Of a DNA stretch of 64,000 bases, positions 3,517-47,090 are shown piece by piece (position 1 is the first letter of the stretch; each line of letters opens with the position of its first letter). The position numbers and the translations under genes were made by a program. Where the stretch lies: the NCBI GenBank assembly GCA_943789365.1, contig CALSTV010000001.1, positions 2,790,001 to 2,854,000 on the forward strand. Direction: 5' to 3'. The stretch comes from an uncultured Flavobacteriaceae bacterium. Its GTDB lineage: Bacteria; Bacteroidota; Bacteroidia; Flavobacteriales; Flavobacteriaceae. The notes beneath the pieces are model-generated. The model was not told where the DNA came from, made no database searches, and saw nothing but the letters and a program-made list of their open reading frames with translations.

Positions 3517-5004
3517 ATGATTAAAAAAAAGAAACTTATTATTGCTATTGGAGCGCTACTCTTTGCGTCACAATATATGCAACAGCTCTGTGCTCAAAAG
3601 AAACCTAATGTCATACTTATAATGGCTGATGATTTAGGTTACGGAGATGTTGGTTTTAACGGAAATACCATCATTAAAACACCTCATATGGATACCATGG
3701 CGGCCTCTGGAATGAAGCTCACAAATTTCTATGCAGGTGGTCCTGTGTGCTCCCCAACTAGAGGTACCTGTTTAACGGGTAGACATTATTTTAGATACGG
3801 TATTTTTTCTGCAAATATTGGTCATTTACCAGCAGCAGAAATTACCCTTCCAGAATTACTGAAAGAAGAAGGTTATGCGACCGGACATTTTGGAAAATGG
3901 CATATAGGAACGCTGAGTAAAACGCTTTCCTCAAAAGGGGAAGGCAGGAAACCAGCATTGAACTATTCTCCTCCAGCTGCACATAGCTATGAAACCTCTT
4001 TTGTAACTGAAAGTTCAGTTGCCACTTGGGCCCCTGAAGGAAACAAAGGAAGTGCGAAAAATCCTTACTATTTTAACGGTAAAGTTGAACAAGAAAATAT
4101 TTCTGGAGACGATTCAAGAGTTATCATGGACCGTGTAGTCCCTTTTATTGAGACTGCCGTATCAGAAAAGAAACCTTTCCTTTCTGTAATTTGGTTTCAT
4201 GCACCGCACGAACCTGTAAAAGCTGGACCAGAATACAAAAAGATGTACAGTGAATACAGCGAAGGTAAACAAGATTATTACGGTTGTATAACAGCTATGG
4301 ACGACCAGATAGGAAGGTTACAAGAAAAATTAAAAGCGTTGAAAGTAGATGATAATACCATCATCTTATTTTGTAGTGATAATGGTCCGGAAGGAAAAGC
4401 TGAAACCGATAAAAATCCAGGGACAACAGGTGGACTAAGAGGTAGAAAGAGAAGTTTGTATTAAGGAGGTGTTGGCGTACCTGCCTTTGTGGTATGGCCT
4501 GACAAGATAAAAGCCGGAACTACTTCAAACTATATGAGTAGTACTTTAGACTATGTACCCACAGTTTTAGATGTGTTGCAAATTAAAATGCCGGATGCAC
4601 GTCCTTTAGACGGAATTTCATTAGTACCAATGCTTACTGGGAAGAACGACACTAGAGAAAGCCCCATCCCATTCATGCACAGAGGAAAAGCTTCTTGGAT
4701 TCAAGGAGACTTTAAATACATGACCAGTGGAAGTAAAGTATCGGAAATATACAACCTGAGAACCGATCGTTTTGAAGAACACAATCTATACAAACAATAT
4801 CCGGAAGAGGTAGCGGCCATGAACAAACACATTATGGAATGGAACCTTTCCTGTAAAAAAAGTCATGCAGGAGCCGATTACAACACTGCTTATACCCCAG
4901 TAGATACTTGGGTAGGCATAGATCAAGGCAAAGCAACAGGAAGCAAAAAGAAAAAGAAGAAAAACAAGAACAAAAATAAGAACAAGAATAAAAGTAAAGA
5001 ATAA
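3517..5004 (+). pseudogene. S1 sulfatase interrupted by an in-frame TAA (copy S1)
   Basis: A secreted family S1 (formylglycine) sulfatase in one continuous frame except for a TAA at 4462-4464. The start chosen is the ATG at 3517, which opens a signal peptide ending in LCAQ. The metal-binding motif is MADDLGYGD and the FGly motif is CSPTR with Cys at about residue 78. The stop replaces codon 316. The protein breaks off after GRKRSLY and resumes with GGVGVPAFVVWP, where the paralogue at 36308 reads LYEGGVRVPGIVEWP, so GAA (Glu) to TAA is the simplest change. The C-terminus is a lysine/asparagine-rich tail. The type resembles N-acetylgalactosamine-6-sulfatase-like enzymes, but substrate is not established. 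Confidence 0.9.
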
Positions 5005-5009
5005 TACAT

Positions 5010-6687
5010 ATGAAGAATTATAGCAAAGGATTGGCATTGATTTTATTGATGTTCTTAGGAGTCGTATCACAAATGAACGCTCAAAAAAAGTCTAAGAAAC
5101 CAAATATTATCTTTTTACTTACAGATGACCAACGTTATGATGCATTGGGCTGTATGGGGAACGATGAAATTAAAACACCTAACATAGATAAACTAGGAAA
5201 CGAAGGTGTGATATTTAAAAACTTTTATACCACAACCTCTATTTGTATGGCAAGCCGCGCCCAAATCATGACAGGAATGTATGAATACAAGACAGGATGT
5301 AACTTTTCGCATGGACCCTTGTTACAAGAAAAATTCGACAAGTCGTATCCGGTACTACTGCAAAAAGCAGGCTATAAAACAGGATTTACCGGGAAGTTTG
5401 GCTATGCTGTAAGAACTGAAGCAGAAAGTAAAAAAGGAGGCGCTTCAAACTATCATTCAAATGAGGCTTTACCGATAGATCAGTTCGATTGGTGGAAAGG
5501 GTGGCCAGGTCAAGGGTATTACCAAACCTTTAAAAATGAATATATGGTGGAATACGCTAAAGAATTCCCTCATGTTTCAAAGGCATTAGGAGCGTCTTCA
5601 AGAGATTTTATACGCGAATATGCCAATAAAAAAGACCCTTTCTGTTTGTCGGTAAGTTTTAAAGCACCGCACAGCCCGGTATCTCCAGACCCTGTGTACG
5701 ATGATGTATATGCCGGAGCTAAATTCACAAGACATCCAAACCACGGGCAACAAGGAGGTGCACACTTACCGCAACAAACCAAATTAGGAAGACAGTACTT
5801 GAACCTTGGAAAACGATGGGTAGACGAAGAATATGACAAAGCCTTGGCAAAATATTACCAACTTATTTATGCAGTAGATGTAGCTGTGGGAATGATTTTA
5901 GAAGAAGTTGAAAAGCAAGGAATTGCAGACAATACCATCATCATATTTACAACCGATAATGGATACAGCACTGGAGCACATGGTTTTGGGGGGGAAAGTA
6001 ATGCCTTATGAGGAAGGTGCAAGAGGACCGTTATTAATTTATGCACCAGGTTCGAAATCATTTAAAAAAGGTTGGGAGAGTACGGCCTTGACAGGAAATA
6101 TTGATATGGCACCTACGATTTTAGATTTTGCAGGGTTGCCGATACCGAAGAATATGGATGGAAAAAGTTTGGTGCCTTTAGTAGAAAAGAAAAATGCAAC
6201 CGTAAAAGAGGATCAAGCCATCATTCAAGCATGGGGAGAGGATCCAACACACGCTTTGACGGTAGTTTCTGGGGATTTTAAATATTTATATTGGTTTTAT
6301 GGGGAAGGAATGCAGCCGCAAGAGGAACTGTACAATCTAAAAGAAGACAAATACGAAATGAACAATTTGGCGAGTGATCCTAAAAGTGCCAAAAAGTTAG
6401 CTCAGATGCAAAAACTATACGACAGTTATGTAGAAACATGGAAAAAAGATGCAGTAAAAACAGGAGGATATCCTGAATACGGATCTTTATACGATAGACA
6501 TATTTCATGGGATGTAAAACGAGAAATCATGCAGGTCGATAAAAAAGCCAAGAAAAAAGCAGAGAAAGAGGCAAAACAGAAAGCTTCAGGAAAAACCGCA
6601 GATGAAGAAAAGAAAGCAAGAAAAGCAAAAGCAAGAGCCGAAAGAAAAGCGAAAGAAGCAGCAGAAAAAGCAGCAATGGAAGCTTAA
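5010..6687 (+). pseudogene. S1 sulfatase with +1 frameshift in a G7 run (copy S2)
   Basis: A secreted S1 sulfatase split into two overlapping frames. The first (from ATG 5010) has a signal peptide ending in NAQ, the metal motif LLTDDQ and an FGly motif of the CxAxR form (CMASR, Cys at about residue 79). It fails at 6011, soon after GAHGFGG. The second frame carries on with KVMPYEEGARGPLLIY and runs to 6687. The shift maps to seven G residues at 5988-5994; six would restore one frame. The C-terminal 60 residues are extremely rich in Lys, Ala and Glu. It follows the previous sulfatase by five bases, so they form one operon. Its closest relative in the window is the also frameshifted copy at 41290. 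Confidence 0.9.
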
Positions 6688-6840
6688 TTAATGCCTCGGA
6701 ATAGGTTGATAGTTTCCGCAATCAAAATAATTAAAAAGTGAAACTTGAACTGGGAGATTTGAATCACTATTTGGAATATTCATCATATCAATTGATACAT
6801 GTCTAAATTATTTTTGAAGAGAACTATAATAGAAAATAAA

Positions 6841-8346
6841 ATGACACAAAAGAATTTAAGTTTATTGGCTTTACTTTTTACAGTAATTTTCTTCTCGAAT
6901 GCACAGAAGAGACCTAATATTGTATTGATTTTATCTGACGATGTGGGTTTTGAAGAATACGGTATTTACAAAGTAAAAAAAGGAGAGCAATCGAATACGC
7001 CTATAATTGATCAATTAGGAAGAGATGGTGTTGCCTTTAAAACAGCCTATGCACAAAGTATTTGTGGCCCCTCAAGAGCCATGTTGTATTCAGGCTGTTA
7101 TGCAGCTACCAATGGTGCTTACGATAACAAAGTAAACTACCTACCAGGAAATGAGAAAAAGGACAAAGACCGTTTTCCGAACTTTATAAGAGTTTTACAC
7201 GATGCAGGCTATAAAACAGCCGTAGCAGGAAAATGGCACAATCCAATAGGAGGTACGCTTGGAGTAGATAATAAGTTATTAGGGGTAGACCAATATGTAG
7301 TATACAATAGTGGACCTTCTAGTGTGAAAAAACTTACAGGATTAGACATGGTTCCTGATGAAAACTGGGAAATTGCAGCCATTTCTAAATTGCCAATATT
7401 ATCGCGTTATTGGAAACCTGCCTACGTGCAAGATGGTAAATTGTTAAAAACAACAATGAAAGACTACGGTCCTGATATTTTAACAAATTACATCTGTGAT
7501 TTTATCAAAGAAAATGCAAAATCTGATCAGCCTTTTCTGGCTTTTTATCCAATGGTATTGGCACATAGTTCACACACAGTAACACCAATTGATGTTGCCG
7601 AAGGAGCAAAACCTTCCAATAAACATTATAAAAATGCATCTGAACTTGGAGCCAAATATTTTAAAAATCAAATTCATTATGCCGATATGTTGGTGGGTAG
7701 AATTTTGGAAACTATCAAAGAACAAGGAATAGAAGGAGAAACCATTGTAATTTATACTTCCGATAATGGAACCACATCGTCTGCAAAAAGTAAAGGTGTA
7801 GAGTACGGAGTGCATGTACCATTTATGGTCGCTGGACCTAGTATAAAGCAAAGAGGAATGACTAATGAGCTGATCGACTTTACAGATGTGTTACCAACAT
7901 TGGCCGATTTAGCACAAACTAAAATTCCTTCAAAATATAAAATAGATGGTAAAAGCGCAGCTCCTTTTTTACGTGGAGAAACAGATACCACAAAGGAAGT
8001 AATTTTCGCCCAACCCGGATTGGCATCTTTGGTAAGAACAAAAGAATACTTGTTGGAAGCGGTTTGTCCGTTATTCGGATATCCAAAAGGACGTTTCTAT
8101 AAAACAAATGGTTCCTACGACGGTAGAGGTTATGAAAATATTACACATGACGAAAATTATATTGGGGTAAGAAGCGCTTTTGATGACTATCTGGATTTTA
8201 TGAGTTCGAAATTACCGACCTCTTTTGAAGACCCCATTTGGAATAAGGAGTTGAAAAAAGGAAAAAAACATTTCACAAGCAAACAGCAACAAAAGAATCA
8301 CTTGAAATTACCAATAAAATATAATTTTTACGATCCTTCATTTTAA
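6841..8346 (+). CDS. Secreted S1 sulfatase (copy S3)
   Basis: An intact 501-residue sulfatase. The start at 6841 is preferred over an upstream ATG at 6799 because it begins a clean signal peptide (MTQKNLSLLALL, ending in SNAQ). Motifs seen: metal-binding LILSDDVG, FGly site CGPSR with Cys75, AGKWHNP and the second metal motif YTSDNGTT. These predict a periplasmic or surface sulfate-ester hydrolase needing formylglycine maturation; no maturase gene is in the window. Its nearest paralogue here is the sulfatase at 33292 (shared DYGPDI and LLEAV segments). It stands six bases ahead of the next sulfatase gene. The exact sulfated sugar is unknown. Confidence 0.94.
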   Translation: MTQKNLSLLALLFTVIFFSNAQKRPNIVLILSDDVGFEEYGIYKVKKGEQSNTPIIDQLGRDGVAFKTAYAQSICGPSRAMLYSGCYAATNGAYDNKVNYLPGNEKKDKDRFPNFIRVLHDAGYKTAVAGKWHNPIGGTLGVDNKLLGVDQYVVYNSGPSSVKKLTGLDMVPDENWEIAAISKLPILSRYWKPAYVQDGKLLKTTMKDYGPDILTNYICDFIKENAKSDQPFLAFYPMVLAHSSHTVTPIDVAEGAKPSNKHYKNASELGAKYFKNQIHYADMLVGRILETIKEQGIEGETIVIYTSDNGTTSSAKSKGVEYGVHVPFMVAGPSIKQRGMTNELIDFTDVLPTLADLAQTKIPSKYKIDGKSAAPFLRGETDTTKEVIFAQPGLASLVRTKEYLLEAVCPLFGYPKGRFYKTNGSYDGRGYENITHDENYIGVRSAFDDYLDFMSSKLPTSFEDPIWNKELKKGKKHFTSKQQQKNHLKLPIKYNFYDPSF

Positions 8347-8351
8347 TCATT

Positions 8352-10112
8352 ATGAAACTTAGAACTTTTTACTTTTTATTTTTTGCCTTAACCGGGTCAA
8401 TTACATTGTATGCACAATCACAACCCAACGTAATAGTCATCATGTCTGACGATATGGGAAACAATTTAGCCTCCGTTGGAAACCCGTGGTTAAAAACCCC
8501 CAATGTAGACAAACTGGCAAAACAATCCATCCGACTTACGAACTTTCATCAAGCCATTATGTGTACGCCGTCGCGTACCGCCATGATGACTGGGAAGTAT
8601 TCTTTAAGAACGGGTGCCTGGAGAACAAGTGTGGGACGTTCGAATATGAGAACAGAAGAAACAACCATAGCCGAGGTTTTCAGAGAAAATGGATACAAAA
8701 CAGGGCAATTTGGAAAATGGCACTTGGGAGATACCTGGCCATTTAGAGCTTCAGATCAAGGCTTTGACGAGGTGGTGAATTTTAAATGTGGTGGAATAAG
8801 CCAAATATCGGACTATTGGGGGAATGATTATTTTGATGATGTCTATTATCACAACAATGTTCCTAAACAATACAAGGGCTATTGTACAGACGTATTCTTT
8901 GGAGAAACCATTCGGTTTATAAAAGAAAATAAAAACGAACCATTTATGGTATATCTAGCGCCCAACGTTGCGCATTTACCCGCCATAGTAGCAGAAAAAT
9001 ACTCAAAACCTTGGGAAGACAAAGGCCATACTAAAAAACAAGCCATCTATTACGGAATGATTACCAATTTAGATGAGAATATGGGACGTTTGATGGAAGC
9101 CTTGGAAGCACAGGGAATAGCCGATAATACCATCATCGTATTTACGACAGATGACGGAACAGCTGGGTATGCCGCACAATTTAACAAAGAAGGCTGGCCT
9201 CTAGAAAACGGCTTTAATATGGGGCAAAGAGGAGGGAAAGGTTCCCCATATGAAGGTGGACATCGACTTTTTTCTTATGTAAAATGGACGGGTGGCCAGA
9301 TCAAAGGAGGTACCGAAACCGATCAACTTACCTCAGTTATGGATGTTTTTCCAACACTTATGGATCTTTGCGAAATCAAAGCACCTAAAAATCTCAATCA
9401 AGATGGCGTTTCTTTTAAACCTGCTTTGTACAGTAAAGAAATCCCAGGAGCGGAAGAAAGAGCTTTGTATTTGGTAAAATTAAATCCGGCCAAAGAAGAC
9501 GATTTTAAAAGAAATATATTTTGTGTGGTTGAAGGAGATTGGCGCTATGTCAATCGAAAAGAACTGTATAATGTAAAAGAAGACAGACTGCAAAAAAACA
9601 ATCTTATTGATAGCCATCCCGAAATCGCTCAAAAGATGGAGGCCGGTTTGCAAAACTTTTTAAAGACCAATGCAGCGGATAGAGAAACCCCTGTTCGTTT
9701 TATTTTAGGAGATAAAGAGCATAAAAAAATATCTTTAACGACTCAGGATTTATGGGGGAACTCAGCCTTTGCTCAAGGCCATGTTATGAAATTGGAAAAG
9801 GGTTCAGGACCGTGGAAAGTCCAATTTGTAAATAAAGGAACCTATAGAATTACTTTATCCCGCTATCCCCTGTATACCGGTTTTGCGTTTAACGAAAAAA
9901 CCATGGGAAAACGCAGTAAGGAATTTTCAGCAAATAAGGCAAAATTAGTCGTTGCTGGAAATACCTACGAAAAAGATATAAAGGCAACTGATACGCAGGT
10001 CTCGTTTGATGTAAAACTCAAAAAAGGAGCCGCAGATTTAGAGACTTGGATTTTTTCTGAGGAAGGAATTACAGTCCCTGCATATTTTGTCGATGTGGAA
10101 TTACTTAAATAA
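8352..10112 (+). CDS. Secreted S1 sulfatase with extra C-terminal domain (copy S4)
   Basis: A 586-residue sulfatase, longer than the neighbouring copies. Signal peptide to about residue 22 (LYAQ), metal motif VIMSDDMG, FGly motif CTPSR at Cys71, GKWHLGD, and FTTDDGTAGY as the second metal motif, where Asp stands in place of the usual Asn. After the catalytic region (to about residue 450) comes a beta-rich domain of about 120 residues (NKGTYRITLSRYP), seen also in the paralogue at 39391-41150. The role is desulfation of an extracellular glycan. It continues the operon starting at 3517 and precedes a GH29 gene by 26 bases. Confidence 0.94.
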   Translation: MKLRTFYFLFFALTGSITLYAQSQPNVIVIMSDDMGNNLASVGNPWLKTPNVDKLAKQSIRLTNFHQAIMCTPSRTAMMTGKYSLRTGAWRTSVGRSNMRTEETTIAEVFRENGYKTGQFGKWHLGDTWPFRASDQGFDEVVNFKCGGISQISDYWGNDYFDDVYYHNNVPKQYKGYCTDVFFGETIRFIKENKNEPFMVYLAPNVAHLPAIVAEKYSKPWEDKGHTKKQAIYYGMITNLDENMGRLMEALEAQGIADNTIIVFTTDDGTAGYAAQFNKEGWPLENGFNMGQRGGKGSPYEGGHRLFSYVKWTGGQIKGGTETDQLTSVMDVFPTLMDLCEIKAPKNLNQDGVSFKPALYSKEIPGAEERALYLVKLNPAKEDDFKRNIFCVVEGDWRYVNRKELYNVKEDRLQKNNLIDSHPEIAQKMEAGLQNFLKTNAADRETPVRFILGDKEHKKISLTTQDLWGNSAFAQGHVMKLEKGSGPWKVQFVNKGTYRITLSRYPLYTGFAFNEKTMGKRSKEFSANKAKLVVAGNTYEKDIKATDTQVSFDVKLKKGAADLETWIFSEEGITVPAYFVDVELLK

Positions 10113-10138
10113 AGAATAATAATTTAAATAGAATAAGA

Positions 10139-11737
10139 ATGAAGCGTATAGATTTCAAAATGTTGGTAGTACTCATGATAGGTTTTAGCCTGTCTGCACA
10201 AGAACTGGATTTAAACAATTTGCCGTTTCCTACGGGAGGTGAAGACTGGGGAATCGAGTATTCAAAAAACTGGAAATCGCTGCAGGAAAGAGAAATTCCG
10301 GAATGGATGATCGATGCCAAATTTGGTGTTTATACGCATTGGGGAGTGTATTCAGTCCCTGCAAAAGGAGGTCCAGACTACGTAAATGAATTGTATACTG
10401 CCAAAGACGAATACGATCGCAAAGGGGTTAAAGCATACCATCGTGAAAAGTATGGGAAAATTGCAGATTTTGGATATGCCGACTTTATTCCTCAGTTTAC
10501 AGCACCAAAATTTGATGCCAAAGAATGGGCTGGAATCATGAAAGGTGCAGGTGCTAAGTTTGGTGGTATCTGTGTGGTACATCACGATGGATTTTGTTTG
10601 TGGGATTCTAAAGCAACCCGTTGGAATTCGAAGAACATGGGACCTAAAAGAGATATTTTTGGTGAAATTTCCAAGGCGGTAAAAGCAGAGGGCATGAAAA
10701 CAGTAGCCACCTTTCATCATGCGAGAACCTTTGGATATGCTTTCGATAAAAAACATATGGATGAGTATACCGATTACCAAAAAGAAAATTGGGACCTCTT
10801 CGATCCAAAATTTGCAGACTTCTATAGAAACGATGAAGTAGAACCTCAAGAAAGCTTTGGAAACGAATGGTTTAAAAAAGTAAGAGAGGTAATGACACAA
10901 TACGAACCAGATATGTTGTGGTTCGACGGATTGTCTGGTGCTATGATAAAAGGAATGCTACCGGAAGAACGCGTAATTGATATGTTTAATGATTTTTACA
11001 AACAAGGACCGCAAAATGTAATAAGTAATAAATTACCAGGTTCTGGTGTGTGGAATTTTCCTAGAGGCGTTGGAATTCGTTGTTACGAAGGTGGGCGTGA
11101 TATGGAACCAAATCCAAAAGGGTATTGGTTGGTAGATAGAGCTATCAGTTATCCTTGGTCGTGGGTAAATGACAAGTCGTATAGAGATAAAGAAGACTTT
11201 CATATCCGTACGATCATAGATGTCGTGAGTAGAGGAGGTGTATATCTGTTGTCATTAACACCAAAAGGTGATGGTTCGATTTCAAAAATGGAGCAAAAAA
11301 TAATGAAAGGAATTGGAACTTGGATGGATACAAATGGGGAAGCTATTTTTGCTACAAGAAAATGGAGAACACACGGTTCTGGTGAAGCGAAGATTGTCAA
11401 AGTAAAATACGACAAAAAATTAGTGTGGTGGGATTTTAGAACCATCAAAGACAAAGAAATTAGATACACACGTAAAAAAGACAATTCAGCCGTTTATGCC
11501 ATCGTAACTGGTTGGAACGAAAATGGTACAATTACCTTAAAAGAATTGGCTAAAGATGAAAAGTTTGCGACCAAAGGCATCAAAGAAATAAAAATGCTTG
11601 GTGTAGAGGAGAAAATTGAATGGAAACGAACTGCCGATGGTTTGGTGTTGAATTATCCAAAAACAAAACCTGGAGACCATGCCTATACCTTTAAAATTAT
11701 TCCTAATGGGAAACTGGTAGATTTCGATAGGGAGTAG
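10139..11737 (+). CDS. GH29 alpha-L-fucosidase
   Basis: A 532-residue secreted glycosidase with a signal peptide (cleavage after about residue 20, SLSAQ). The GH29 fold is shown by AKFGVYTHWGVYSVP near the N-terminus, the HHDGFCLWDS segment and the nucleophile motif MLWFDG with Asp263. These enzymes release alpha-L-fucose with retention of configuration. The acid/base residue cannot be fixed by eye. A beta-sandwich-like C-terminal domain follows residue 380. It lies in the plus-strand operon between sulfatases and a GH20, which suggests attack on a fucose-bearing sulfated glycan after desulfation. A second GH29 is at 28122. Confidence 0.93.
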   Translation: MKRIDFKMLVVLMIGFSLSAQELDLNNLPFPTGGEDWGIEYSKNWKSLQEREIPEWMIDAKFGVYTHWGVYSVPAKGGPDYVNELYTAKDEYDRKGVKAYHREKYGKIADFGYADFIPQFTAPKFDAKEWAGIMKGAGAKFGGICVVHHDGFCLWDSKATRWNSKNMGPKRDIFGEISKAVKAEGMKTVATFHHARTFGYAFDKKHMDEYTDYQKENWDLFDPKFADFYRNDEVEPQESFGNEWFKKVREVMTQYEPDMLWFDGLSGAMIKGMLPEERVIDMFNDFYKQGPQNVISNKLPGSGVWNFPRGVGIRCYEGGRDMEPNPKGYWLVDRAISYPWSWVNDKSYRDKEDFHIRTIIDVVSRGGVYLLSLTPKGDGSISKMEQKIMKGIGTWMDTNGEAIFATRKWRTHGSGEAKIVKVKYDKKLVWWDFRTIKDKEIRYTRKKDNSAVYAIVTGWNENGTITLKELAKDEKFATKGIKEIKMLGVEEKIEWKRTADGLVLNYPKTKPGDHAYTFKIIPNGKLVDFDRE

Positions 11738-11745
11738 TACATTAG

Positions 11746-11771
11746 CAATGGCAGTCTATAGGCTGCCATTG
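11746..11771 (+). terminator. Intergenic hairpin between GH29 and GH20
   Basis: A perfect 9-bp inverted repeat (CAATGGCAG at 11746-11754 and CTGCCATTG at 11763-11771) with an 8-base loop lies right after the GH29 stop codon, followed by TTTAGTTTT. It could be a weak terminator, an mRNA-stabilising element or a processing hairpin. The T tract is interrupted, so termination may be partial and set GH20 expression lower than that of the genes before it. Confidence 0.6.
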
Positions 11772-11800
11772 TTTAGTTTTAGCAACCAAATACATTTGTA

Positions 11801-13417
11801 ATGAGATTTTTTATACTTCTTTTTTGTAGCAGTTTAACCTTGTATTCGCAAGAGATTTCTTTACTTCCCGAACCTACAGAAATGGAATTGAAAACAGGAG
11901 AAGCTTTTCGATTGCACAAAAACAGTAGACTCTTGTATTCGGATAGCAAATTGAAAAACGAAGTAAAGTACCTTAAAAATAGAATTCAAAGTGCGACTGG
12001 CTTTAAGTTTTCTGAAAAGAAATCTATTAAAAAGGCAAAAAAGGGAGATGTAGTACTTAAATTACAGAACGGAAAAGGTGTCATAGGAAGTTATCGTTTA
12101 GAGGTGAAAGAGGGGGTCGTAGAAATTTCTGCAAACACTACCACTGGTGTTTTTTATGGAATCCAAAGTTTACAACAACTCTTTCCTGCTCAAATGTATG
12201 CCTCAAAAATACAGGAAAAAGAAGATTGGAGTTTTCCTGCCGTGACCATTGAAGATGCGCCTGTTTTTGAATGGCGCGGCATGCACTTAGATGTAGCTAG
12301 AAATTTTAGGTCCGTATTTTATGTAAAACGATTTATTGACCTTATGGCGATGCATAAATTAAACGTTTTTCATTGGCATTTGACCGAAGATCAAGGCTGG
12401 CGAATAGAAATTAAAAAATATCCAAAACTAACCGAAATTGGCGCCTGGAGAGATTCTACATTGATTGGACATATGAGAGACAAGCCACATCAATTCAAAC
12501 AGGGAAGAACAGGTGGTTTTTATACCCAAAAAGAAATCAAAGAAGTAGTGCAATATGCGCAACAAAGACATATAACAATCGTACCTGAAATAGAAATGCC
12601 AGGGCACGCACAAGCAGCCATCGCCGCTTATCCAGAGCTTGGAAATACGGGTGTGTCGCCAGGAATTCGCCCAATGTGGGGGATAAGTAAAGAAATTTAC
12701 AACCCAGAAGAAACGACTATTGCGTTTTTAAAAGATGTGTTAGATGAAGTATTAGCACTCTTTCCCTCAACCTATATTCATATTGGTGGAGATGAAGCTA
12801 AAAAAGACCAATGGGAGTCGAGCAAGCGGGCACAGGAATTACTAAAAGAACGTGGATTGCACGATATGCATGAAATGCAAAGTTGGTTTATCAGTCAAAT
12901 AGACACCTATCTTACCGCAAAAGGAAGAAAATTAATTGGTTGGGATGAAATTCTCGAAGGAGGTCTGGCAGACGGTGCTGCTGTTATGTCGTGGAGAGGT
13001 GATAAAGGAGGTATAAAAGCGGCTAAAGCAGGACACAAAGCCGTTATGGCCACCAATAAATACACGTATTTTGACAAATACCAATCTAAAAACAAAGAGA
13101 ATGAACCCTTGTCTATTGGTGGACTAGTTACTTTAGAAACTGTTTATCATTTTCAACCCATACCAAAAGAATTAACGGCAAATGAAGCCAAAAACATCAT
13201 GGGTGCTCAAGGGCAATTATGGTCGGAATACATAGTATCCGATTCACATATGGATTATATGGCCTTTCCTAGGGTATGTGCATTGGCTGACGTAGTATGG
13301 TCAAATAAAGAATCTAGGAATTATAAAGAATTCCTTACCAGTCTAGAACAACATTTACATCGGCTAGCTATATTAAACATAAACTATCGCATGCCAGATG
13401 AATTCAAAAAGAAATAA
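11801..13417 (+). CDS. GH20 beta-N-acetylhexosaminidase
   Basis: A 538-residue secreted enzyme with signal peptide (cleaved after TLYSQ). Residues 20-150 match the alpha/beta GH20b domain (GVFYGIQSLQQLF), followed by the catalytic barrel with FHWHLTEDQGWRIEIKKYPKL and the catalytic Asp331-Glu332 pair in HIGGDEAKKDQW. GH20 enzymes use substrate-assisted catalysis by the acetamido group and remove terminal beta-linked GlcNAc or GalNAc. The late WRGDKGG and QLWSEY motifs are present. Ten bases separate it from the following sulfatase, so the two are probably co-transcribed. A second GH20 lies at 26032. Confidence 0.95.
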   Translation: MRFFILLFCSSLTLYSQEISLLPEPTEMELKTGEAFRLHKNSRLLYSDSKLKNEVKYLKNRIQSATGFKFSEKKSIKKAKKGDVVLKLQNGKGVIGSYRLEVKEGVVEISANTTTGVFYGIQSLQQLFPAQMYASKIQEKEDWSFPAVTIEDAPVFEWRGMHLDVARNFRSVFYVKRFIDLMAMHKLNVFHWHLTEDQGWRIEIKKYPKLTEIGAWRDSTLIGHMRDKPHQFKQGRTGGFYTQKEIKEVVQYAQQRHITIVPEIEMPGHAQAAIAAYPELGNTGVSPGIRPMWGISKEIYNPEETTIAFLKDVLDEVLALFPSTYIHIGGDEAKKDQWESSKRAQELLKERGLHDMHEMQSWFISQIDTYLTAKGRKLIGWDEILEGGLADGAAVMSWRGDKGGIKAAKAGHKAVMATNKYTYFDKYQSKNKENEPLSIGGLVTLETVYHFQPIPKELTANEAKNIMGAQGQLWSEYIVSDSHMDYMAFPRVCALADVVWSNKESRNYKEFLTSLEQHLHRLAILNINYRMPDEFKKK

Positions 13418-13426
13418 GAAGAGCAA

Positions 13427-23490: not shown

Positions 23491-23763
23491 ATAAATCAAA
23501 GGTTGAAAGTACAAATATTTCTTTTTTACTCTGAAATTTTATGACGATATCTATCAATAATTGACATTTTTTTTGACTTACTAAAGGTTCGTCTATTACC
23601 GGACTTCTAGTCTGCTTGCGTGTTTGTTGGGTATATTGGTTTGTGAATTGAAGGAAACTCCTATTAATATGGTAACTGATTCACGATTTTTACTAACAAT
23701 ACTTTATTTTTGATACCTTAAGAATAACAGCAGTTTTAAAAAGGCGGTAAAATTATAGAGAAC

Positions 23764-27663: not shown

Positions 27664-28121
27664 TTCTAAGTTTGTTTTGAATAGGGCTAAGTTAGTAAAT
27701 AGCTGTTCTATAAAAAATTTCTTTGTGAAACATGACAAAGACGAATATGGTTTCAGTAAAATTACAAGTTTGTTCTGAGGGAGTGAGAAGCAGATGGAAC
27801 AAATTATAACTTATATATTACACAATGGTATTGTTTCTTAGTTACTTGATAAAATCAAATGCCTATTGCGAATAAATTCCAAACTTTAGTACTGTAGTAA
27901 ATGATTTGTGAATCGAAGAGAAAGTGAAGTAGTGAGGTAGTGAAGTAGTGAGGTAGTGAAACGACTTCCGGAGCACGTCGACCACAAACTACCAACAAAT
28001 TCCACCTTGTAGGACTGGAGCTATGGGGTTGAGTTTGCAACAAATCGACTAACTATTGTGACAAACGGACAAGGTCTTTCTGTAGGGCTTTAGTACTTTT
28101 GAAAAGTAAATCAATGAATAT
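27664..28121. other. Divergent intergenic region with a 16-bp tandem repeat
   Basis: This 458-bp gap separates the minus-strand GH20 from the plus-strand GH29. It contains a 16-bp direct repeat (GTGAAGTAGTGAGGTA) present twice with a partial third unit at 27924-27961. A TAnnTTTG element is near the right end. No credible gene was found; short open frames here lack any coding character. Confidence 0.5.
28094..28101 (+). promoter_or_regulatory. Candidate Bacteroidota -7 element before GH29
   Basis: TACTTTTG matches the TAnnTTTG -7 consensus of the Bacteroidota housekeeping sigma factor and lies 20 bases ahead of the GH29 start codon. No good -33 TTTG partner was found at the usual spacing, so the assignment is tentative. 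Confidence 0.35.
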
Positions 28122-29687: not shown

Positions 29688-29776
29688 CAGCCTTTTTGTT
29701 AAATATTGTAAGATTTCGTCATTAAAAAGTTTTGTTTGATTGGTAATTTTGATAAAAACCAAACAAATAAAACTTT

Positions 29777-31453: not shown

Positions 31454-31463
31454 ACTTACAGAC

Positions 31464-33086: not shown

Positions 33087-33154
33087 AATACATCTTATCA
33101 TTATAAGTATAGTAGATTCCCAATGCTATTCAAATAACGATACGTTGTTAAAAG

Positions 33155-33183
33155 GACTCTGAAGACATTCAGGGTCTTTTTTT
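33155..33183 (+). terminator. Intrinsic terminator after DUF1501
   Basis: GACTCTGAA and TTCAGGGTC pair with one G-T wobble around the loop GACA, followed by seven T residues up to 33183. It lies 70 bases after the DUF1501 stop and separates this unit from the next sulfatase run. Confidence 0.85.
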
Positions 33184-33240
33184 GCAATAAATGGAGCTTT
33201 TTTTGTTAGAATCGTATCTACAAACAACCTTGCAATGGAC

Positions 33241-33248
33241 TAAATTTG
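33241..33248 (+). promoter_or_regulatory. Candidate -7 element of the second sulfatase run
   Basis: TAAATTTG fits TAnnTTTG and stands 43 bases ahead of the sulfatase start at 33292, just downstream of the terminator at 33155. No certain -33 element was found. Its position agrees with a fresh transcript starting the 33292-42874 run. Confidence 0.45.
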
Positions 33249-33291
33249 TAGGAGTACAAATAAACTTGCAACAACAAATAATTACTTATAA

Positions 33292-34764: not shown

Positions 34765-34774
34765 TTTTATAACG

Positions 34775-36304: not shown

Positions 36305-36307
36305 AAA

Positions 36308-37828
36308 ATGAAATCAATTTTTAGTCTATTCATTTATGTTGCAAGCGTTTTTACGTTGCAGGCACAAAATGCAGAAAGCAAGCGTCCAAATATCATCCTT
36401 CTATTGGCAGATGACATGGGCATTGCAGACGCTGCCTGTTATGGATTTAGCAAGGATGTGATAACACCTAACCTCGATGCCATGGCGGCCAATGGCTTAC
36501 AATTTAACAGATTCTATGCACAAGCACCAGTTTGCAGTCCAACAAGAGGTAGTTATTTAACTTCAAGACACCCTTTTCGCTATGGAATCTTTGAAGCCAA
36601 TGTAGGAACACTACGGCCAGAAGAATATACCTTAGCGGAAGCCTTAAAAGAAGAAGGTTACCAAACAGCGCACTTTGGAAAATGGCATTTGGGAGCGGTC
36701 ACCGAAGAACCTTTGGACAAACTGCGAATGAAATACAACCCACCGTCTGCGCATGGTTTTGATACTTGGTTTTCAACCTATTCATGCGTAGACACTGCAA
36801 ACCCTTATGGATCTGATGGAGATTATCGTCAGTCCTTAAGTCCTTATTACGAAAACGGACAACTGGTCACAGAAAAGTTGATGGGAGACGACTCTAGAAT
36901 CATCATGAACAGAGCCTTGCCTTATATCGAAGATAAGATTGGATCACGACAACCTTTTTTTACGGTAATTTGGTTTCATACGCCGCACAAACCTGTAAAG
37001 GCAGAAGAGAAATACAAAAAAATGTATAACCATCTCGATGAGAAATCTCAAGAATATTTTGGAGCCATCACTGCGATGGACGAACAGATTGGACGATTAA
37101 GAGCCCTTTTAAAAGAAAAAGACGCAGATAGCAATACCTTGCTTTGGTTCTCGAGTGATAACGGAGCAATTAAAACCGAAAGCACAGGTCCGTATACCGC
37201 AGGAAAAAGACATTTGTACGAAGGAGGTGTCCGAGTACCCGGTATTGTAGAATGGCCAAATACGATACAAAAAGGAAGGCAAACCGAAATGGTGTCTGCA
37301 TCTGTTGATTTTATGCCGACTGTGATCGAATTGGTGAGAAAAAAGGACATGCGTAGCTATTTGATGGACGGTATCAGTCTAGCACCTTTGTTGGAAGGAA
37401 AAAAACAAGTTCGCGAAAAACCCTTGTTTTTTCAATCACATGGATCTTCTGTAGTCATGAATCAGGAATACAAAGCACTCAAAATACGCACAGGTGCTTT
37501 TTCAGAAGGGCAAGCAGGAAAATCCAAGCATGCTTTAGACAAATGGATGCTGTTTGATATGCAAAAAGATGCGGTAGAAAAAGTAGATATAAGTGCTTCC
37601 TTTCCAGAGGTAGTCACTGAACTGACATCGGCGTACGATGTATGGGCTGCCACTTGTAAGGAAAGCTTTTTCGGAAAAGAATATCTCGATCCAAACTATT
37701 CCACAGAAGCAAAATACCGCGACAATGCTGGTTTGATGAAAAAGAAATCGGGTAAAAAGAAAAAGAAAGAAGGCGGGAAAAAGAAAAATAAAAAGAACAA
37801 ATCAAAAAAGAAAAACGATGAAGCATAG
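36308..37828 (+). CDS. Secreted S1 sulfatase with lysine-rich tail (copy S9)
   Basis: An intact 506-residue sulfatase: signal peptide to TLQAQ, metal motif LLLADDMGIAD, FGly motif CSPTR with Cys76, FGKWHLGAV and FSSDNGAIK. It is the intact counterpart of the interrupted gene at 3517 (PFRYGIFEANVG versus YFRYGIFSANIG, and both with a GRLRALL/GRLQEKL segment) and shows that LYEGG is the normal reading at the interrupted site. The last 30 residues are almost wholly Lys with Gly and Asn. Its stop overlaps the next start by 11 bases, so translation is probably coupled. Confidence 0.94.
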   Translation: MKSIFSLFIYVASVFTLQAQNAESKRPNIILLLADDMGIADAACYGFSKDVITPNLDAMAANGLQFNRFYAQAPVCSPTRGSYLTSRHPFRYGIFEANVGTLRPEEYTLAEALKEEGYQTAHFGKWHLGAVTEEPLDKLRMKYNPPSAHGFDTWFSTYSCVDTANPYGSDGDYRQSLSPYYENGQLVTEKLMGDDSRIIMNRALPYIEDKIGSRQPFFTVIWFHTPHKPVKAEEKYKKMYNHLDEKSQEYFGAITAMDEQIGRLRALLKEKDADSNTLLWFSSDNGAIKTESTGPYTAGKRHLYEGGVRVPGIVEWPNTIQKGRQTEMVSASVDFMPTVIELVRKKDMRSYLMDGISLAPLLEGKKQVREKPLFFQSHGSSVVMNQEYKALKIRTGAFSEGQAGKSKHALDKWMLFDMQKDAVEKVDISASFPEVVTELTSAYDVWAATCKESFFGKEYLDPNYSTEAKYRDNAGLMKKKSGKKKKKEGGKKKNKKNKSKKKNDEA

Positions 37829-39398
37829 CATTTTAGCTGTTTTTATAGCAAGTACATTTTTTGGAATGGCACAAAAGAAAGCCCCGAATATTCTCTTTAT
37901 CATGTCGGATGATCATTCCGCTGAAACCATTGGTGTGTACGCTTCTACACTTAAAGAGCATGTACAAACACCAAACATAGATCGTTTGGCAACCGAAGGC
38001 GCGCAATTCAACAATGTGCAATGTGTAAATTCTTTATGTGCTCCCAGTAGAGCGACTATAATAACGGGTAAATACAGCCATAAGACAGGTGTGTATACCC
38101 TTAGAGAAGATTTGAACACAGGAGGGGATGCCACTTCGGCTCCAAAAATTTTACAAGCCAAAGGGTATCAAACTGCGATTATTGGAAAATGGCATGTGCA
38201 TGGTGATAATTTACACGGTTATGACTATTACGCCATGACCCGTTCACAAGGAAGTTATTGGAATCCGTCATTAGCAGCTAAAGACGGTGAAAAAGTAAAA
38301 AGAGAAGGTTATGTAACCGATGTGTATACCGATTTGTCGATTGAATGGTTGGACAAGCGGGACAAAGAAAAGCCCTTTTTCCTTATGACCCATTACAAAG
38401 CGGCACATGGGCCTTGGGAGTACGCAAAACGACATGCCGATATGTACAAAGATGTGACCATTCCGGAGCCCCCCACTTTATACGATACCTATGAAAACAG
38501 AACGCCGGAAGGTATACCTACGAACCAAAGTCGTATTCACAGAGGCGATGAAGATAAAATGAGTTTGTCATACTGGTTTCAATTTGGTAAAAAAGGAGCC
38601 TCTGGAACTTGGCCTACGGGAAATATTGATTTGAAAGGAATGTCGGCCAAAGAAAAAACAGCAGCTGCCTATCAAAAATACATCAAAGACTACATGAGAG
38701 TTGTCAAAGGAATTGATGAAGGGGTAGGGAAAATGTTAGCCTACTTAGAAGCCCAAGGGGAGTTGGACAATACCATTGTTATGTACACCTCAGACCAAGG
38801 AATGTATGTTGGAGAGCACGGGTTTTTCGACAAGCGATTGGGATTGAACGAAGCCATGAAAATGCCATTATTGATTCGCTATCCTAAAAAGATAAAAGCC
38901 GGAACGCAAATAGATGCAATTATCAACAATGTAGATTTTGCAGAGACGTTTGTAGACATGGCTGGAGCAGAAATCCCTTCAGATATGCAAGGGTATAGTT
39001 TTTGGGATTTAACACAAGGAAAGAATAGCAAAGACTGGCCGAGAAAACAAAGTTATTACGGTTTCTATTCCAATGGAATTCCAAAGCACTATGGTTTGTT
39101 GACCGATGATTACAAAATACTCAAATACATTGGGAAAGATGGTCATTTGCTAGGGGTGGATTTGTTTGATCGAAAAAACGACAAGCACGAAATGTACAAC
39201 CAGGCGAACAACCCTAAATATGCCAAAGCATTGGCAGAAATGGAAGCCAAACTAGCCGCAGAAATTGTAGCCATTGATTTGCCAAAGGAATTGATGCCGG
39301 GCAACCTGGTAAAAGAGGAAGGCAAGGAAAAAAAGAAGAAGGACAAATCGAAAAAGAAGTCCAAAAAGAACAAAACAAAACAGAAAGAACATGCGTAA
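37818..39398 (+). CDS. Secreted S1 sulfatase with lysine-rich tail (copy S10)
   Basis: An intact 526-residue sulfatase: signal peptide ending in GMAQ, metal motif FIMSDDHSAETIG, FGly motif CAPSR with Cys74, GKWHVHGDNLHGYDYY and TSDQGMYVGEHGFFDKRLG. It is of the same type as the copies at 13427 and 24455. The C-terminus after about residue 500 is a lysine-rich tail (KEKKKKDKSKKKSKKNK). Its last codons overlap the next gene's ATG by 8 bases (ATGCGTAA), which supports the ATG at 39391 as the true start of that gene. Confidence 0.94.
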   Translation: MKHSILAVFIASTFFGMAQKKAPNILFIMSDDHSAETIGVYASTLKEHVQTPNIDRLATEGAQFNNVQCVNSLCAPSRATIITGKYSHKTGVYTLREDLNTGGDATSAPKILQAKGYQTAIIGKWHVHGDNLHGYDYYAMTRSQGSYWNPSLAAKDGEKVKREGYVTDVYTDLSIEWLDKRDKEKPFFLMTHYKAAHGPWEYAKRHADMYKDVTIPEPPTLYDTYENRTPEGIPTNQSRIHRGDEDKMSLSYWFQFGKKGASGTWPTGNIDLKGMSAKEKTAAAYQKYIKDYMRVVKGIDEGVGKMLAYLEAQGELDNTIVMYTSDQGMYVGEHGFFDKRLGLNEAMKMPLLIRYPKKIKAGTQIDAIINNVDFAETFVDMAGAEIPSDMQGYSFWDLTQGKNSKDWPRKQSYYGFYSNGIPKHYGLLTDDYKILKYIGKDGHLLGVDLFDRKNDKHEMYNQANNPKYAKALAEMEAKLAAEIVAIDLPKELMPGNLVKEEGKEKKKKDKSKKKSKKNKTKQKEHA

Positions 39399-41150
39399 GA
39401 TGTTGAAAATCAATGAGGTCAAACAGGCTGTCTGCTCAGTATTTTTGACCGACCTGCTTTACGGTAACTCTTGTGTTGCAGGCTCAAAAGCCCAATGTAA
39501 TTCTTGATTGTGACGGATGATCAGGGCTATGGTGAAGTTGCGGCTCATGGAAACACAAAGATAAGCACTCCTGAAATGGACAAGCTACACAATACCGGTG
39601 TTCGTTTGGATAATTTTCATGTAAACTCCGTTTGTTCACCAAGTAGAGCCGCCTTGATGACGGGTCGTTATGCAACCAATGTTGGGGTTTGGCATACCTT
39701 GGGTAGCCGTAATATTGTATATAAAGACGCTGTTATGTTTCCCCAGTTTTTTCAAAAGGAAGGCTATAAAACGGCCATGGTTGGAAAATGGCATTTAGGA
39801 GATAATTATCCGTACAGACCTGAAGATCGTGGTTTTGAAGAGGTATTTAGAATAGGTGGAGGTAGCCTGGGTCAGGTAGCAGATTATTGGGCAAACGGCC
39901 TATGGGACGGACATTACTTACACAACGGAACTTGGGTGAAAACTAAAGGGTTCTGTACCGATGTTCAGTTTGATGCCGCTTTAGATTTTATCGATACATC
40001 TAAAAAAGATCCTTTCTTTTTAACCATTACGACTACGGCACCACATTCACCTATAGGAGCAGGTGATGAATATCTAAAACCCTATTTAGAAATGGGGTTA
40101 AAAGATGATGTAGCCAAGTTCTATGGAATGGTGACCAATATAGATGACAATATTGGACGTTTGAGAAAGAAGCTCGAGGCTCTTAATCTTACCGAGAATA
40201 CCATTCTTGTGTTTATGAGTGACAACGGTTCTGCAAACGATAAAAAAGGCGATAGTTTTAATGGAAACATGCGAGGTAAAAAAGGAAGTTTGTACGAAGG
40301 TGGACATCGTGTACCTTGTTTCCTCTACTGGCCAGCGGGCGGTTGGACAGGAGGTAAGGAGTTGCAACAAGTAACTGCTCATATCGATTTGCTGCCGACA
40401 CTTTTAAAAGCTTGTGGTATTAAAAACCATTTCAATGTTGCGTTTAATGGGCTTGAATTGAATGATCATATTGCAAACCCATCGAAAGAATTGGACAGAT
40501 TATTGATAACTGAATGTAAGGTCAACAAAAGAGACAGCCCTTTCAATTCAAGTGTGGTTTTACAAGACGATTGGCGTTTGGTTGGCGATGATGAACTGTA
40601 TAACTTAGAGGATGATTTTGCACAAACAAACAATATTATTAAAGCGAACAACGACATACAAAACACACTTGCTGCGTATTATACAGAATGGTACGAGGCT
40701 TCAAAACATCGCTTTGAAGAATTCATTGCTTTGGAAATTGGAAACGAAAAGGTGGAGTTGTATAGCATGGATTTATACCAAGGAGCCATGACACAACCAA
40801 AGACAAAAGTGATATGGAACCAAAAGGCAGTCTTAAAAGGAGAGCACTATCGCGGGTTTTGGATGTTGGATTTTGAGGAAAAAGGAACCTACCAGGTGCG
40901 GGTTAGAAGATGGCCAGATACAGAAAAATACAGCTTGGCAATTGGACCTAAAAAGTCGAAAAAGTTACAAATCAATGGTGCGGTTCTGACTGTTGGAGGG
41001 AAAGAAATTAAAACAGCGGTGAGCAGTAAAGAGCAAGAAGCCGTCTTTCAAGTAACATTTGAAGCTGGTGAGCAGCGCTTTCAAGCTGAGTTTGTAAACG
41101 AAAAAGGAGAACAGTTTTCTGGGTATTATGTGTATTTGGAGCGATTGTAG
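39391..41150 (+). pseudogene. S1 sulfatase with two 5' frameshifts (copy S11)
   Basis: The ATG at 39391 overlaps the previous stop and begins MRKMLKINEVKQAVCSVFL in frame 1. The frame then changes twice. One extra T near 39458-39460 would lead from LTDLL into TVTLVLQAQKPNVIL, a signal-peptide end and sulfatase start. One extra G at about 39506 leads into IVTDDQGYGEVAAHG, after which the frame is open to 41150. Downstream motifs are complete: FGly CSPSR, GKWHLGDNYPYRPEDRGFEE, MSDNGSAND and a beta-rich C-terminal domain (EKGTYQVRVRRWP) like that of the copy at 8352. A TTG start at 39504 could yield a protein without a signal peptide and with the first metal motif only partly intact. Confidence 0.85.
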
Positions 41151-41289: not shown

Positions 41290-42874
41290 ATGAAATTAAA
41301 AACATATGGAATTATAGGATTACTTGCTTTGGCAAGTGTAGTAACAGCACAAGCCCCAAAAAACAAAGCACCAAACATTGTATTCCTATTGGCAGATGAT
41401 ATGAGTTATGATTCCTTTGGCTTTATGGAACGCTATGGATTGCAAACTCCGGTTTTAGACAAGCTAGCCGAGTCTGGAGTGCGATTCACTAAAAACTACA
41501 ATACAACAGCCATTTGTATGGCGAGTAGAGCACAACTTATGACGGGCTTATACGAGTTTTCTACAGGAACCAATTTTGTGCATGGCGATTTAAGTCATGA
41601 TACTTGGGAAACTTCGTACTCACAAGTTTTAAGAAGCAACGGCTACTTTGTTGGATTTGCAGGGAAATTCGGTTTTAAAGTGAAAGGCAAAGACGGAGGC
41701 AAGGGAAATACGGAAACCGTAAAAAGTACGTTTGATTGGTGGTCGGGATGGCTTGGACAAGGAAGCTATGCCATGGAGAAAAATAAGGAAGCAACCGCGT
41801 ATATAGAAAAGTATGGAGATAAAAAAGAGCATACGACACATGCTTTAGGATTGATGTCCCAAGATTTTGTGCAAAAAGCCAAAGCTTCGGGTAAACCCTT
41901 TTGTCTGTCGGTTAGTTTTAAAGCACCGCATACCCCGTATTGGTTAGATCCACGTTACGAAGAAGTATATAAAGGGAAGCAGTTTCCCAAACCGGTTAGT
42001 TTTGGGACCGGTAATCAGTTGCCGGCTCAGGCAAAATCAGGTCGTCCGTATTCGAAAGGAAAGGGCTGGGTAAAAGATTATGACAATTCCATGTACAAGT
42101 ACCACACAATGGTCTATGCGATGGATAAGGCCGTTGGAATGTTGATTGAGGAGCTGAAAGCGCAAGGGGTATATGACAATACAATTATAATTTTTACCTC
42201 CGATAACGGGCACTTTAATGGTGCTAAGGATATGGGAGGGAAGCTGTATGCCTATGAAGAAGGCTCATTAGCACCTACCATTGTGATGGATCCTAGACGT
42301 AAATCGAAACAGCAATTTGAAACCAATGCCGCCTTGAGTGGCAATATTGATATTGCTTCAACCATACTCGATTATGCAGGGATAGCCGATACGGCAAAAA
42401 GACATGGAAAAAGTCTAAAGCCACTCTTAGACGGAAAAGCTAAGAAAATCCACGAATCCATGTTTTTAATCAATGTCTGGGGGACAGCTTCAGCGCAATC
42501 TTTAGGTGTTGTAACGAGTGATTATAAATACATCCATTGGTTTCTATGGCGCAGCCGATTTTAAACCCAAAGAAGAGCTGTTTGATTTGAAAAAGGACCC
42601 CTTTGAACAAAAGGACTTGGCAGAAGCCAAAAAGCAAGCCAAGCAACTCAAAAAAATACAAGGTTTGTATGACGATTGGCTACAGGTTTGGGAACAAGAT
42701 GTGGTGGCCGGTGCCGGTTATGAGAAGTATGTTCGCTTAGGAAATAGAAGTATTCCTTTTACTGACAACGACCCCTTGGAAATCAAAGATATGTACGACG
42801 ATCCTAAAGCCAATAAAGGCGCAAAGGACAAGAAGTCCAAAAAAGCAAAAAAAGACAAGAAGAAAAAGGAGTAG
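41290..42874 (+). pseudogene. S1 sulfatase with +1 frameshift (copy S12)
   Basis: The ATG at 41290 opens a signal peptide (ending in VTAQA). The frame holds metal motif LLADDMSYD, FGly motif CMASR (Cys76), and FTSDNGHFNGAK, and then fails at 42564 after SDYKYIHWF. The continuation GAADFKPKEELFDLKKDP lies in the next frame to 42874. The paralogue at 5010 reads YLYWFYGEG here, so one extra T in the TTT at 42541-42543 explains the break. The C-terminus is lysine-rich (KDKKSKKAKKDKKKKE). It is the last gene of the second sulfatase run. Confidence 0.9.
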
Positions 42875-45529: not shown

Positions 45530-45940
45530 TTACTGCTGTTCTATCGTACCTGTTACCGGGTTGTCGGTGTCAGTCTCGCCTGCTTCTCTCAAGAAAGCTA
45601 CAAAAGTACCAGAAGCCTGTGAGCCTGAAGTAAGTGTAAAAAGATCGTTGACCGATCCTGTAATGACCAATTGTCCAATGGAGTTTACCGACCAGTCTTC
45701 GGTATCTACGGTTTGATCAGCGTAATTAATCAGAACGGTTCCATTTTGATCGAAGTCGTAGGAATGTATGCCGTCTTCACCGGAAAAAGTCATATGATAG
45801 GTGCCAGGCAAAGTTGCGCTGTCGAACAAAATTGTTGGGAGCTCCATTTCGTCGTCTTCCGATTCATCGCAGCCCGTAAAAAGGAAAGCCGTTGCTAAAA
45901 AAAAGATTGTGTAGAATTTTAGTTTGGAAAGCTGTAACAT
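45530..45940 (-). CDS. Small lipoprotein, lipocalin-like layout
   Basis: A 136-residue lipoprotein (lipobox LFTGC, Cys at about 24, followed by an acidic linker DESEDDE). The mature part has short beta strands (LPGTYHMTFSG, HSYDFDQNGTVLINY, WSVNSIGQLVITG), a layout seen in small lipocalin-like lipoproteins of Bacteroidota. No definite family or role was recognised. It stands alone on the minus strand. Confidence 0.65.
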   Translation of the reverse strand: MLQLSKLKFYTIFFLATAFLFTGCDESEDDEMELPTILFDSATLPGTYHMTFSGEDGIHSYDFDQNGTVLINYADQTVDTEDWSVNSIGQLVITGSVNDLFTLTSGSQASGTFVAFLREAGETDTDNPVTGTIEQQ

Positions 45941-46145
45941 AAGAAAGTAGTTTTAAGTTGTTGGAAGTGAGAATGATGTGTATACAAATATAGTTAATTA
46001 TTGATACATCAATACACGGTCACAAATGGGTAGTTGTAACTAGCTTTGTGTTGTGTGAGTTTAAGAGATGGGGGCCTAAAACAAACCAGTGTTATTAGAA
46101 AATAGAATTGTTTCTGGGGTATAATGAACGAAAAGATAATGCCGA

Positions 46146-47090
46146 TTATAAACAACTAGCATTTAATTCTTGGTAATCCGATTTCATTACAAATGGTATG
46201 TATTGACCATTTTTAATTTTTATACAATTCAAATTTGAATTTCTTTCCACCCTCAAATCTTCTAATTTTAGATTGTTACTGACATCAAGATTGGTGAGTT
46301 GGTTGTCAATAATATAGAGATGTGTTAAATTGCTATTGTTTTCAAGATCTATATTTTGTAGTTTGTTTCCAGAGACCAATAGTGTCTCTAACGATGTATT
46401 GGTGCTGAAATCTACAGTTTCTAGCTGATTTAATGGCATGTAAATGTTTCGTAGCTGCACGGCTCCATCGGTATTTAAGCTTTTCAAATCATTATGACTA
46501 ATGTATAAAACTTGTAAGGAAGTGCTGTGAATGCTAAATTCCTCTAAATAATTCCATGAGATATCCAAAGTTTTTAAGTTTGGCGCATTTTCCAATCCAA
46601 TGAGGGTACTTTCCGAGTCAAATTCATTATCACTGAGATAGACAAGTAATAATTCTTTGTTATTACTGAGGTCGATATCACTGAGGGTGTTTCCTGATAA
46701 ATACAGGGAGTCCAATTGGGTGTTATTGCTCAAGTCTACGGTTTCAATATTTTGGTTAGCTGCAGATAGTAAGGTTATGTTTATAAAGCCCTCAATTCCT
46801 TTTAAGTCCGCGATTTTACCAGCATTTGTAGTGAGATTTAAGTCCAGTCGACTTACGCTTTCTGCGTCCTCTCGTAGGATTAATTTGTTGATGATTCCAT
46901 CTGTGTCTATACCCTGTTTGATTAATTCTGCTTCAAAATTCGGATCGGGAATATCAATATAAAGCGCTTCATTTGGAGCTAGTAGGTCACTCTCTGTGCC
47001 ACATTAAGTGCTTATCAAAAGTGAAAGAAACATACTAAAAAACGGTAGTGTATGCCGTTTTGTGTAAACTATTCGAAATGTATTTTTCAT
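46146..47090 (-). pseudogene. Leucine-rich-repeat lipoprotein with in-frame TAA
   Basis: From the ATG at 47088-47090 the frame encodes a hydrophobic signal ending FLSLLIST, then TAA at 47004-47006, then Cys-Gly-Thr-Glu-Ser and an open frame to 46146. The stop sits just before the presumed lipid-bearing Cys, where a small residue such as Ser (TCA to TAA) is expected. Downstream the protein starts LYIDIPDPNFEAELIKQGID and holds about eight LRR units (LDSLYLSGNTLSDIDLSNN type). This layout is common for surface LRR proteins of Flavobacteriaceae. Without a start after the stop, only an unanchored internal product (for example from Met at 46733) could form. Confidence 0.82.

Follow-up and report, generated by a model that had tools for sequence, protein, structure and literature searches.

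Point lesions in a sulfatase-rich putative glycan-degradation island of an uncultured Flavobacteriaceae bacterium

A 64,000-nucleotide window of an uncultured Flavobacteriaceae genome (bases 2,790,001-2,854,000 of a 3.69-Mb contig; the genome comprises 3.73 Mb in three contigs and is 99.84% complete) contains an island of 21 genes, about 40 kb long (positions 3517-42874), in which four sulfatases and a hybrid two-component regulator (HTCS) are broken by one or two point lesions each. A leucine-rich repeat (LRR) lipoprotein to the right of the island is broken in the same way. We consider it probable that this lineage-specific island, putatively devoted to the degradation of sulfated, fucose- and N-acetylhexosamine-containing glycans, is in early decay under relaxed selection. 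A first-pass annotation had named recent relaxed selection beside switching and base errors; it is the best supported of the three because lesions per gene are few, coding signal persists on both sides of them, relatives of the broken genes are intact and clustered, and lesion rates fall along a gradient from the window to the rest of the genome. The strain would no longer need the locus. An HTCS cut in its receiver domain would lose its DNA-binding helix-turn-helix (HTH), so that the locus probably could not be induced and would lie silent; the other island genes would then be nearly neutral, gathering point lesions that so far number one or two each.

Broken genes and their intact relatives

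The lesions were checked by translation in all frames and by Pfam domain matches of the resulting pieces. All six genes proved to be open except for these lesions and to be homologous to other proteins on both sides of them, as first annotated, and the persistence of coding signal and complementary domain matches in both pieces supports decay. Sulfatases are named here by their first position, and coordinates are collected in Table 1. The pieces of sulfatase 3517 match PF00884 positions 1-247 and 264-300, those of sulfatase 5010 positions 1-254 and 254-300. Each of these two lesions was recovered by an ab initio scan and by homologous queries, paralogs included (47 for 3517; 78, switching frame at the site, for 5010). 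Sulfatase 41290 retains SGSH_C positions 8-110 in the first piece and 115-144 in the second, the lesion being recovered by the ab initio scan and by four homologous queries. Sulfatase 39391 has its first ~35 codons spread over more than one frame, followed by an otherwise open frame of 548 residues. The HTCS has every domain of its class (Reg_prop sensor, Y_Y_Y, HisKA, HATPase, receiver and AraC-type HTH), split by the TAA such that the first piece holds the propeller, Y_Y_Y, the kinase and part of the receiver and the HTH falls entirely in the downstream piece; 17 homologous queries recover this lesion.

The lesion types first assigned, a TAA in sulfatase 3517, the HTCS and the LRR lipoprotein and a gain of one base in 5010 and 41290, stand as given. 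For 39391 the two gains proposed do fit, but one stop and one frame change fit equally well. The related statement that all small indels are gains of one base is accordingly correct for 5010 and 41290, the two clear cases, and ambiguous for 39391. As a signature it fails, because only four of eight frameshifts elsewhere in the genome are in the gain sense and the other four run in the opposite one.

To judge from the relatives examined, the broken genes are normally whole, and their intact relatives appear clustered elsewhere. As in the window, a GH141-like gene and five sulfatase relatives (39-59% identity) lie side by side in Labilibacter sediminis (L019) and Carboxylicivirga marina (L020), but there the sulfatases, consecutive relatives of 39391, 36308, 41290, 37818 and 33292, are whole single frames, and the window order is partly rearranged. 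The series sits behind the GH141-like gene, which runs off the fetched locus; its second sulfatase in L. sediminis is closer to 3517 (50% over the first piece of the latter) than to 36308 (41%). The 39391 relatives measure 594 and 583 amino acids, respectively, and the 41290 relatives 529 and 531. A Bacteroidales metagenome-assembled genome (MAG; L025) carries relatives of 33292, 3517 (495 amino acids) and 5010 (509 amino acids) and, two genes further along, of 13427, all in whole frames. The clustered relatives share 39-65% identity with the window genes and belong to a different order of bacteria. Among the best 80 of 105 confirmed loci, in a collection that may leave out the window's own genome, the closest relatives of 41290 are those of L. 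sediminis (59%), C. marina (58%) and the Bacteroidales MAG (57%). Full-length relatives of the HTCS at 45% (L010) and 44% (L011) identity are read as a single frame through the stop site; within the genus its best match reaches 38%.

The gene that borders the island, purB, is conserved at 88-95% identity in each of the five genus relatives (G001-G005). To its right, four of these (G001, G002, G004, G005) carry other open reading frames (ORFs), including several of similar length (about 295, 616 and 855 amino acids), and the G003 contig ends there. Of the ORFs of at least 80 amino acids in the four relatives, none matches the window best, and most have no match in the 38% of the genome compared. 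The window TRAP gene has 92% relatives in G001, G002 and G004, on contigs other than that of purB, and the G+C content of the island is 38.8% compared to 36.1% for the genome (standard deviation 1.5% over 20-kb stretches). On these comparisons the island is therefore accessory and was possibly acquired.

Lesion density in the window and across the genome

Lesion rates were obtained through Viterbi segmentation with a coding model trained on this genome (on the window and the first set of evenly spaced stretches), recording in-frame stops and frame changes that were flanked by 30 or more coding codons on each side. Junctions were judged by eye, most looking like ordinary neighbouring genes. Stretches fetched for lesions already indicated (L156, L158, L160 twice, L203 and the scar in L159) were excluded from the rates. 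Two pairs of stretches overlap, L170/L100 by 10 kb without lesion and L203/L102 by 5 kb.

The window yields four lesions by this rule in 54.5 kb of coding sequence, covering four of the six genes, since the two with lesions near their starts escape the scan. Forty evenly spaced 20-kb stretches of the same genome (692 kb coding) contain three (L179:10793, L181:18479, L190:5830), and glycan-targeted or window-flanking stretches (414 kb coding) contain eight (L155:19172, L161:15095, L164:10636, L193:6431, L195:18795, L195:19804, L199:13010, L202:7047). In 400 kb (352 kb coding) from relatives G001, G002 and G018, where coding models trained on 120-140 kb each may have been less sensitive, a single lesion was seen, in a G018 sulfatase. 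The resulting rates per Mb of coding sequence are 73 for the window, 19 for the glycan-targeted stretches, 4.3 for the evenly spaced ones and 2.8 for the relatives. The window rate exceeds that of the evenly spaced stretches (p = 8e-4, or about 0.05 after multiplication by 58 windows), as does the glycan-targeted rate (p = 0.02); evenly spaced stretches and relatives do not differ (p = 0.59). Since both of the latter carry few lesions, the genome is not generally error-ridden.

Sulfatases were also compared. The genome has 78 sulfatase-domain matches, equivalent to about 76 genes since two pairs of matches are single genes, and 12 of these genes are in the window. Four of the 12 are broken, compared to three of the 64 outside (p = 0.01), the latter inspected by domain scan only; with the domain-scan rule applied to both sets the figures become 2/12 and 3/64 (p = 0.17). 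Among the matches listed in a genus-wide sulfatase search, only two carry a stop, both from this genome.

The lesions elsewhere vary in how well the pieces can be identified. Complementary Pfam pieces are present in a DUF7935 gene (L190) and an ABC-F gene (L203), and PQQ-type propeller matches in both pieces at L199. The downstream piece is beta-helix/GH141-like at L193 and bears a type IX secretion system (T9SS) tail at L181, L202 and L195. At L161 there is one homologous query and a Pfam match on the downstream piece only, and Pfam says little of L179. The lesion in L155 was counted on coding signal and eye only, as were those in L195 apart from the T9SS tail on one piece. A seemingly real stop at position 10310 of L106, close to the C-terminal end of a probable glycoside hydrolase, falls below the size rule and is not in the rate. 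Also uncounted are sites left undecided (L179:1656; the Rhs-like fragments at L101:3166; L101:7046; L176:16125; the transposase-like L168:17727; integrase-like pieces in L180; the L159 scar) and homology matches from single queries (L108, L169, L179:15537-15681 and L119:8229, the last in relative G001). The L159 scar (8737-10160, at 1.35 Mb) is a deletion-like remnant in which the N-terminal part of a sulfatase adjoins the C-terminal part of an HTCS.

Weighing the explanations

Decay under relaxed selection receives support from two other loci with GH29 genes that are broken too. At 3.24 Mb (L160; positions 7722 and 15740) the closest paralog of the window HTCS (45% identity) carries a TAA close to the beginning of the gene; a further TAA lies in the SusD gene of this GH29/SusC locus, the downstream SusD piece being without the start of the SusD domain. 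At 2.47 Mb (L156) a sulfatase is broken in another sulfatase/GH29 locus. Because both the window HTCS and its closest paralog carry a TAA and the 2.47-Mb locus is also broken, one glycan trait may be in the course of loss across several scattered loci at once, regulators included, as though disuse of a single sulfated fucose-type glycan had freed every locus devoted to it, a broader possibility that we think unlikely. Lesions lie in or near GH29 loci in the window, L156, L160, L179 and L193, with two in L195 about 8-10 kb from its GH29; L156 and L160 were, however, fetched because already known to be broken. We claim no association of lesions with GH29 loci, since the GH29 surroundings in L108, L194 and L196 are clean and the GH29 genes themselves are free of stops.

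Several observations weigh against decay of the island as a glycan locus. Decay of the pathway is uneven, all 14 GH29 genes being free of stops over their matched regions. Genes outside glycan metabolism are broken as well: the DUF7935 gene, the ABC-F gene (frame change at L203 position 5630, 650.6 kb) and a second TRAP DctM gene (G000:C1:3468438-3469748, L213), which has one internal TAA. The LRR lipoprotein sits among short genes and remnants and is not a member of the island. The island is the densest of the stretches compared, but its excess is borderline after correction because the window was picked for its lesions, and relative to the other glycan stretches p is only 0.04. The scan was, moreover, tuned on the window: its first version, in which stop codons themselves scored as non-coding, missed the window's stops and was changed. 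Finally, the lesions were read from one assembled genome of the species. The first-pass annotation had also remarked on the clustering of lesions in exported proteins and on their absence from purB, the TRAP genes and the hexosamine operon. The latter was borne out, no lesion being seen in these genes of the window; the former adds little because most genes of the stretch look exported, as judged by family and eye rather than with a signal-peptide predictor.

Locally dense sequencing or assembly errors could make intact genes look broken, and it accords with this that one lesion falls at a seven-G run (5010), that the two in 39391 are separated by no more than a few dozen bases and that all were judged from the assembled sequence. 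Yet 800 kb of evenly spaced sequence gave only the three lesions by rule and the L106 stop, at a rate not above that of the relatives. Stop codons, not indels, break three of the six window genes, frameshifts elsewhere occur in both directions, several of them lying away from homopolymers as judged by eye, and genome completeness is high. The rate gradient also counts against base errors since plain errors would not respect gene class. With evenly spaced stretches nearly clean and half of the broken genes interrupted by stops, such errors are therefore an improbable explanation and a less likely one than relaxed selection. The seven-G run is likewise the one feature in favour of reversible switching (phase variation) of surface or secreted glycan enzymes, G/C runs of at least seven being rare (7 in the 800 kb of evenly spaced stretches). 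It is, however, the only such tract among the six genes: no repeat was seen at the single stops that break three of them, the 41290 site has no tract and the long tandem array at 15013-16545 is intergenic rather than in a gene. Switching is thus extremely unlikely.

The split genes might instead still work, by readthrough, by frameshifting or as separate pieces, such as an AraC-type regulator made on its own from the tail of the HTCS. The open frames and coding signal retained by the downstream pieces are consistent with this, but relatives are single open frames, and the four sulfatases and the HTCS are broken at unrelated sites, among which no common signal was seen by eye, no dedicated search for one having been made. 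We regard continued function as very unlikely. A mutator strain was also considered and set aside: the repair genes examined, for MutS and two HhH-GPD proteins that from their lengths we take to be of MutY and Nth type, are open, and the evenly spaced lesion rate does not exceed that of relatives.

Island content and relation to known systems

The island comprises 12 sulfatases, two GH29 fucosidases, two GH20 hexosaminidases, one GH141-like beta-helix protein, the HTCS and one each of methyltransferase-like, DUF1800 and DUF1501 genes. It is not a classical polysaccharide utilization locus (PUL), in which a SusC/SusD pair accompanies a regulator: the genome's 11 SusD matches all lie outside the window, and no Plug match was found among the 40 window ORFs scanned.

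Table 1. Coordinates and state of genes and repeats in the window
Feature	Position	Strand	State
Sulfatase 3517 (PF00884)	3517..5004	+	in-frame TAA 4462-4464
Sulfatase 5010	5010..6687	+	frame change at seven-G run 5988-5994; old-frame stop 6009-6011
HTCS	16601..20821	-	TAA 17096-17098 in receiver domain
Sulfatase 39391	39391..41150	+	signal-peptide region spread over frames; two lesions
Sulfatase 41290	41290..42874	+	frame change near 42525-42545, inside C-terminal domain
LRR lipoprotein	46146..47090	-	TAA 47004-47006, codon just before presumed lipobox cysteine
purB (adenylosuccinate lyase)	1699..3042	-	no lesion; left border of island
Sulfatases 6799, 8352, 13427; GH29 fucosidase 10139; GH20 hexosaminidase 11801	6799..14992	+	open frames, no lesion
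Beta-helix/GH141-like gene	20872..23514	-	no lesion
Methyltransferase-like gene	23764..24432	+	no lesion
Sulfatases 24455, 33292, 34739, 36308, 37818; GH20 26032; GH29 28122	within 24455..39398		no lesion
DUF1800 (29777); DUF1501 with T9SS tail (31464)	within 24455..39398		no lesion
Tandem array	15013-16545		
Direct repeat of 121 bases	47353-47473, 48359-48479		
Group II intron 3' ends	48498-48653, 50302-50457		
PL8 polysaccharide lyase gene, end	63443-64000		

The tandem array, between sulfatase 13427 and the HTCS, consists of 10.7 copies of a 143-base unit that are 95% alike; the unit has no match in the five genus relatives and, in the rest of the genome, only two partial matches of 42 bases. 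To the right of the island, the direct repeat (93% alike) flanks a HepT-like gene, and two 96%-alike group II intron 3' ends (Rfam RF00029 match at 48555-48635) lie on either side of a gene from the broad PF00144 beta-lactamase/esterase family. Each of these intron ends is preceded, as judged by eye, by the apparent end of an intron reverse transcriptase, and three further copies are present at 2.67-2.68 Mb. From 53 kb onwards the window encodes a nucleotidyltransferase, an APH-type kinase, an MFS transporter, a glucosamine-isomerase/PIG-L protein, a GH18 enzyme, a TRAP transporter and, near the TRAP genes, the end of the PL8 lyase, which continues beyond the window.

Accessory genomic islands that are under relaxed selection and contain pseudogenes are a general phenomenon. 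The window shares with them genes that are open apart from single stops or one-base frameshifts and that belong to a lineage-specific island related to a niche. It differs in its lesion density, which is high for a single stretch of 40 kb, and in that recency is judged here from the intact remainder of each gene, not from a sister strain. In kind this is ordinary gene decay; in degree it is unusually dense. None of the few papers returned by our literature searches is, by its title, on decay of such a locus. A parallel comes from a marine member of the Flavobacteriaceae, Tenacibaculum maritimum, for which a genomic island is described that similarly combines a glycan PUL and gene remains (PMC5561996). 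There the PUL genes are called bona fide and the pseudogenes beside them include transposase, Vgr and Rhs scars (PMC5561996), whereas in the window it is the glycan genes themselves that are broken.

Should the lesions prove to be sequencing errors, the database entry needs correction, and neither outcome alters the understanding of such loci. If the living strain does carry the lesions, its ability to digest sulfated glycans would be overestimated from gene counts, five of the 21 island genes, including the regulator, looking dead, and the island would offer a good natural case for following the order in which a glycan locus decays.

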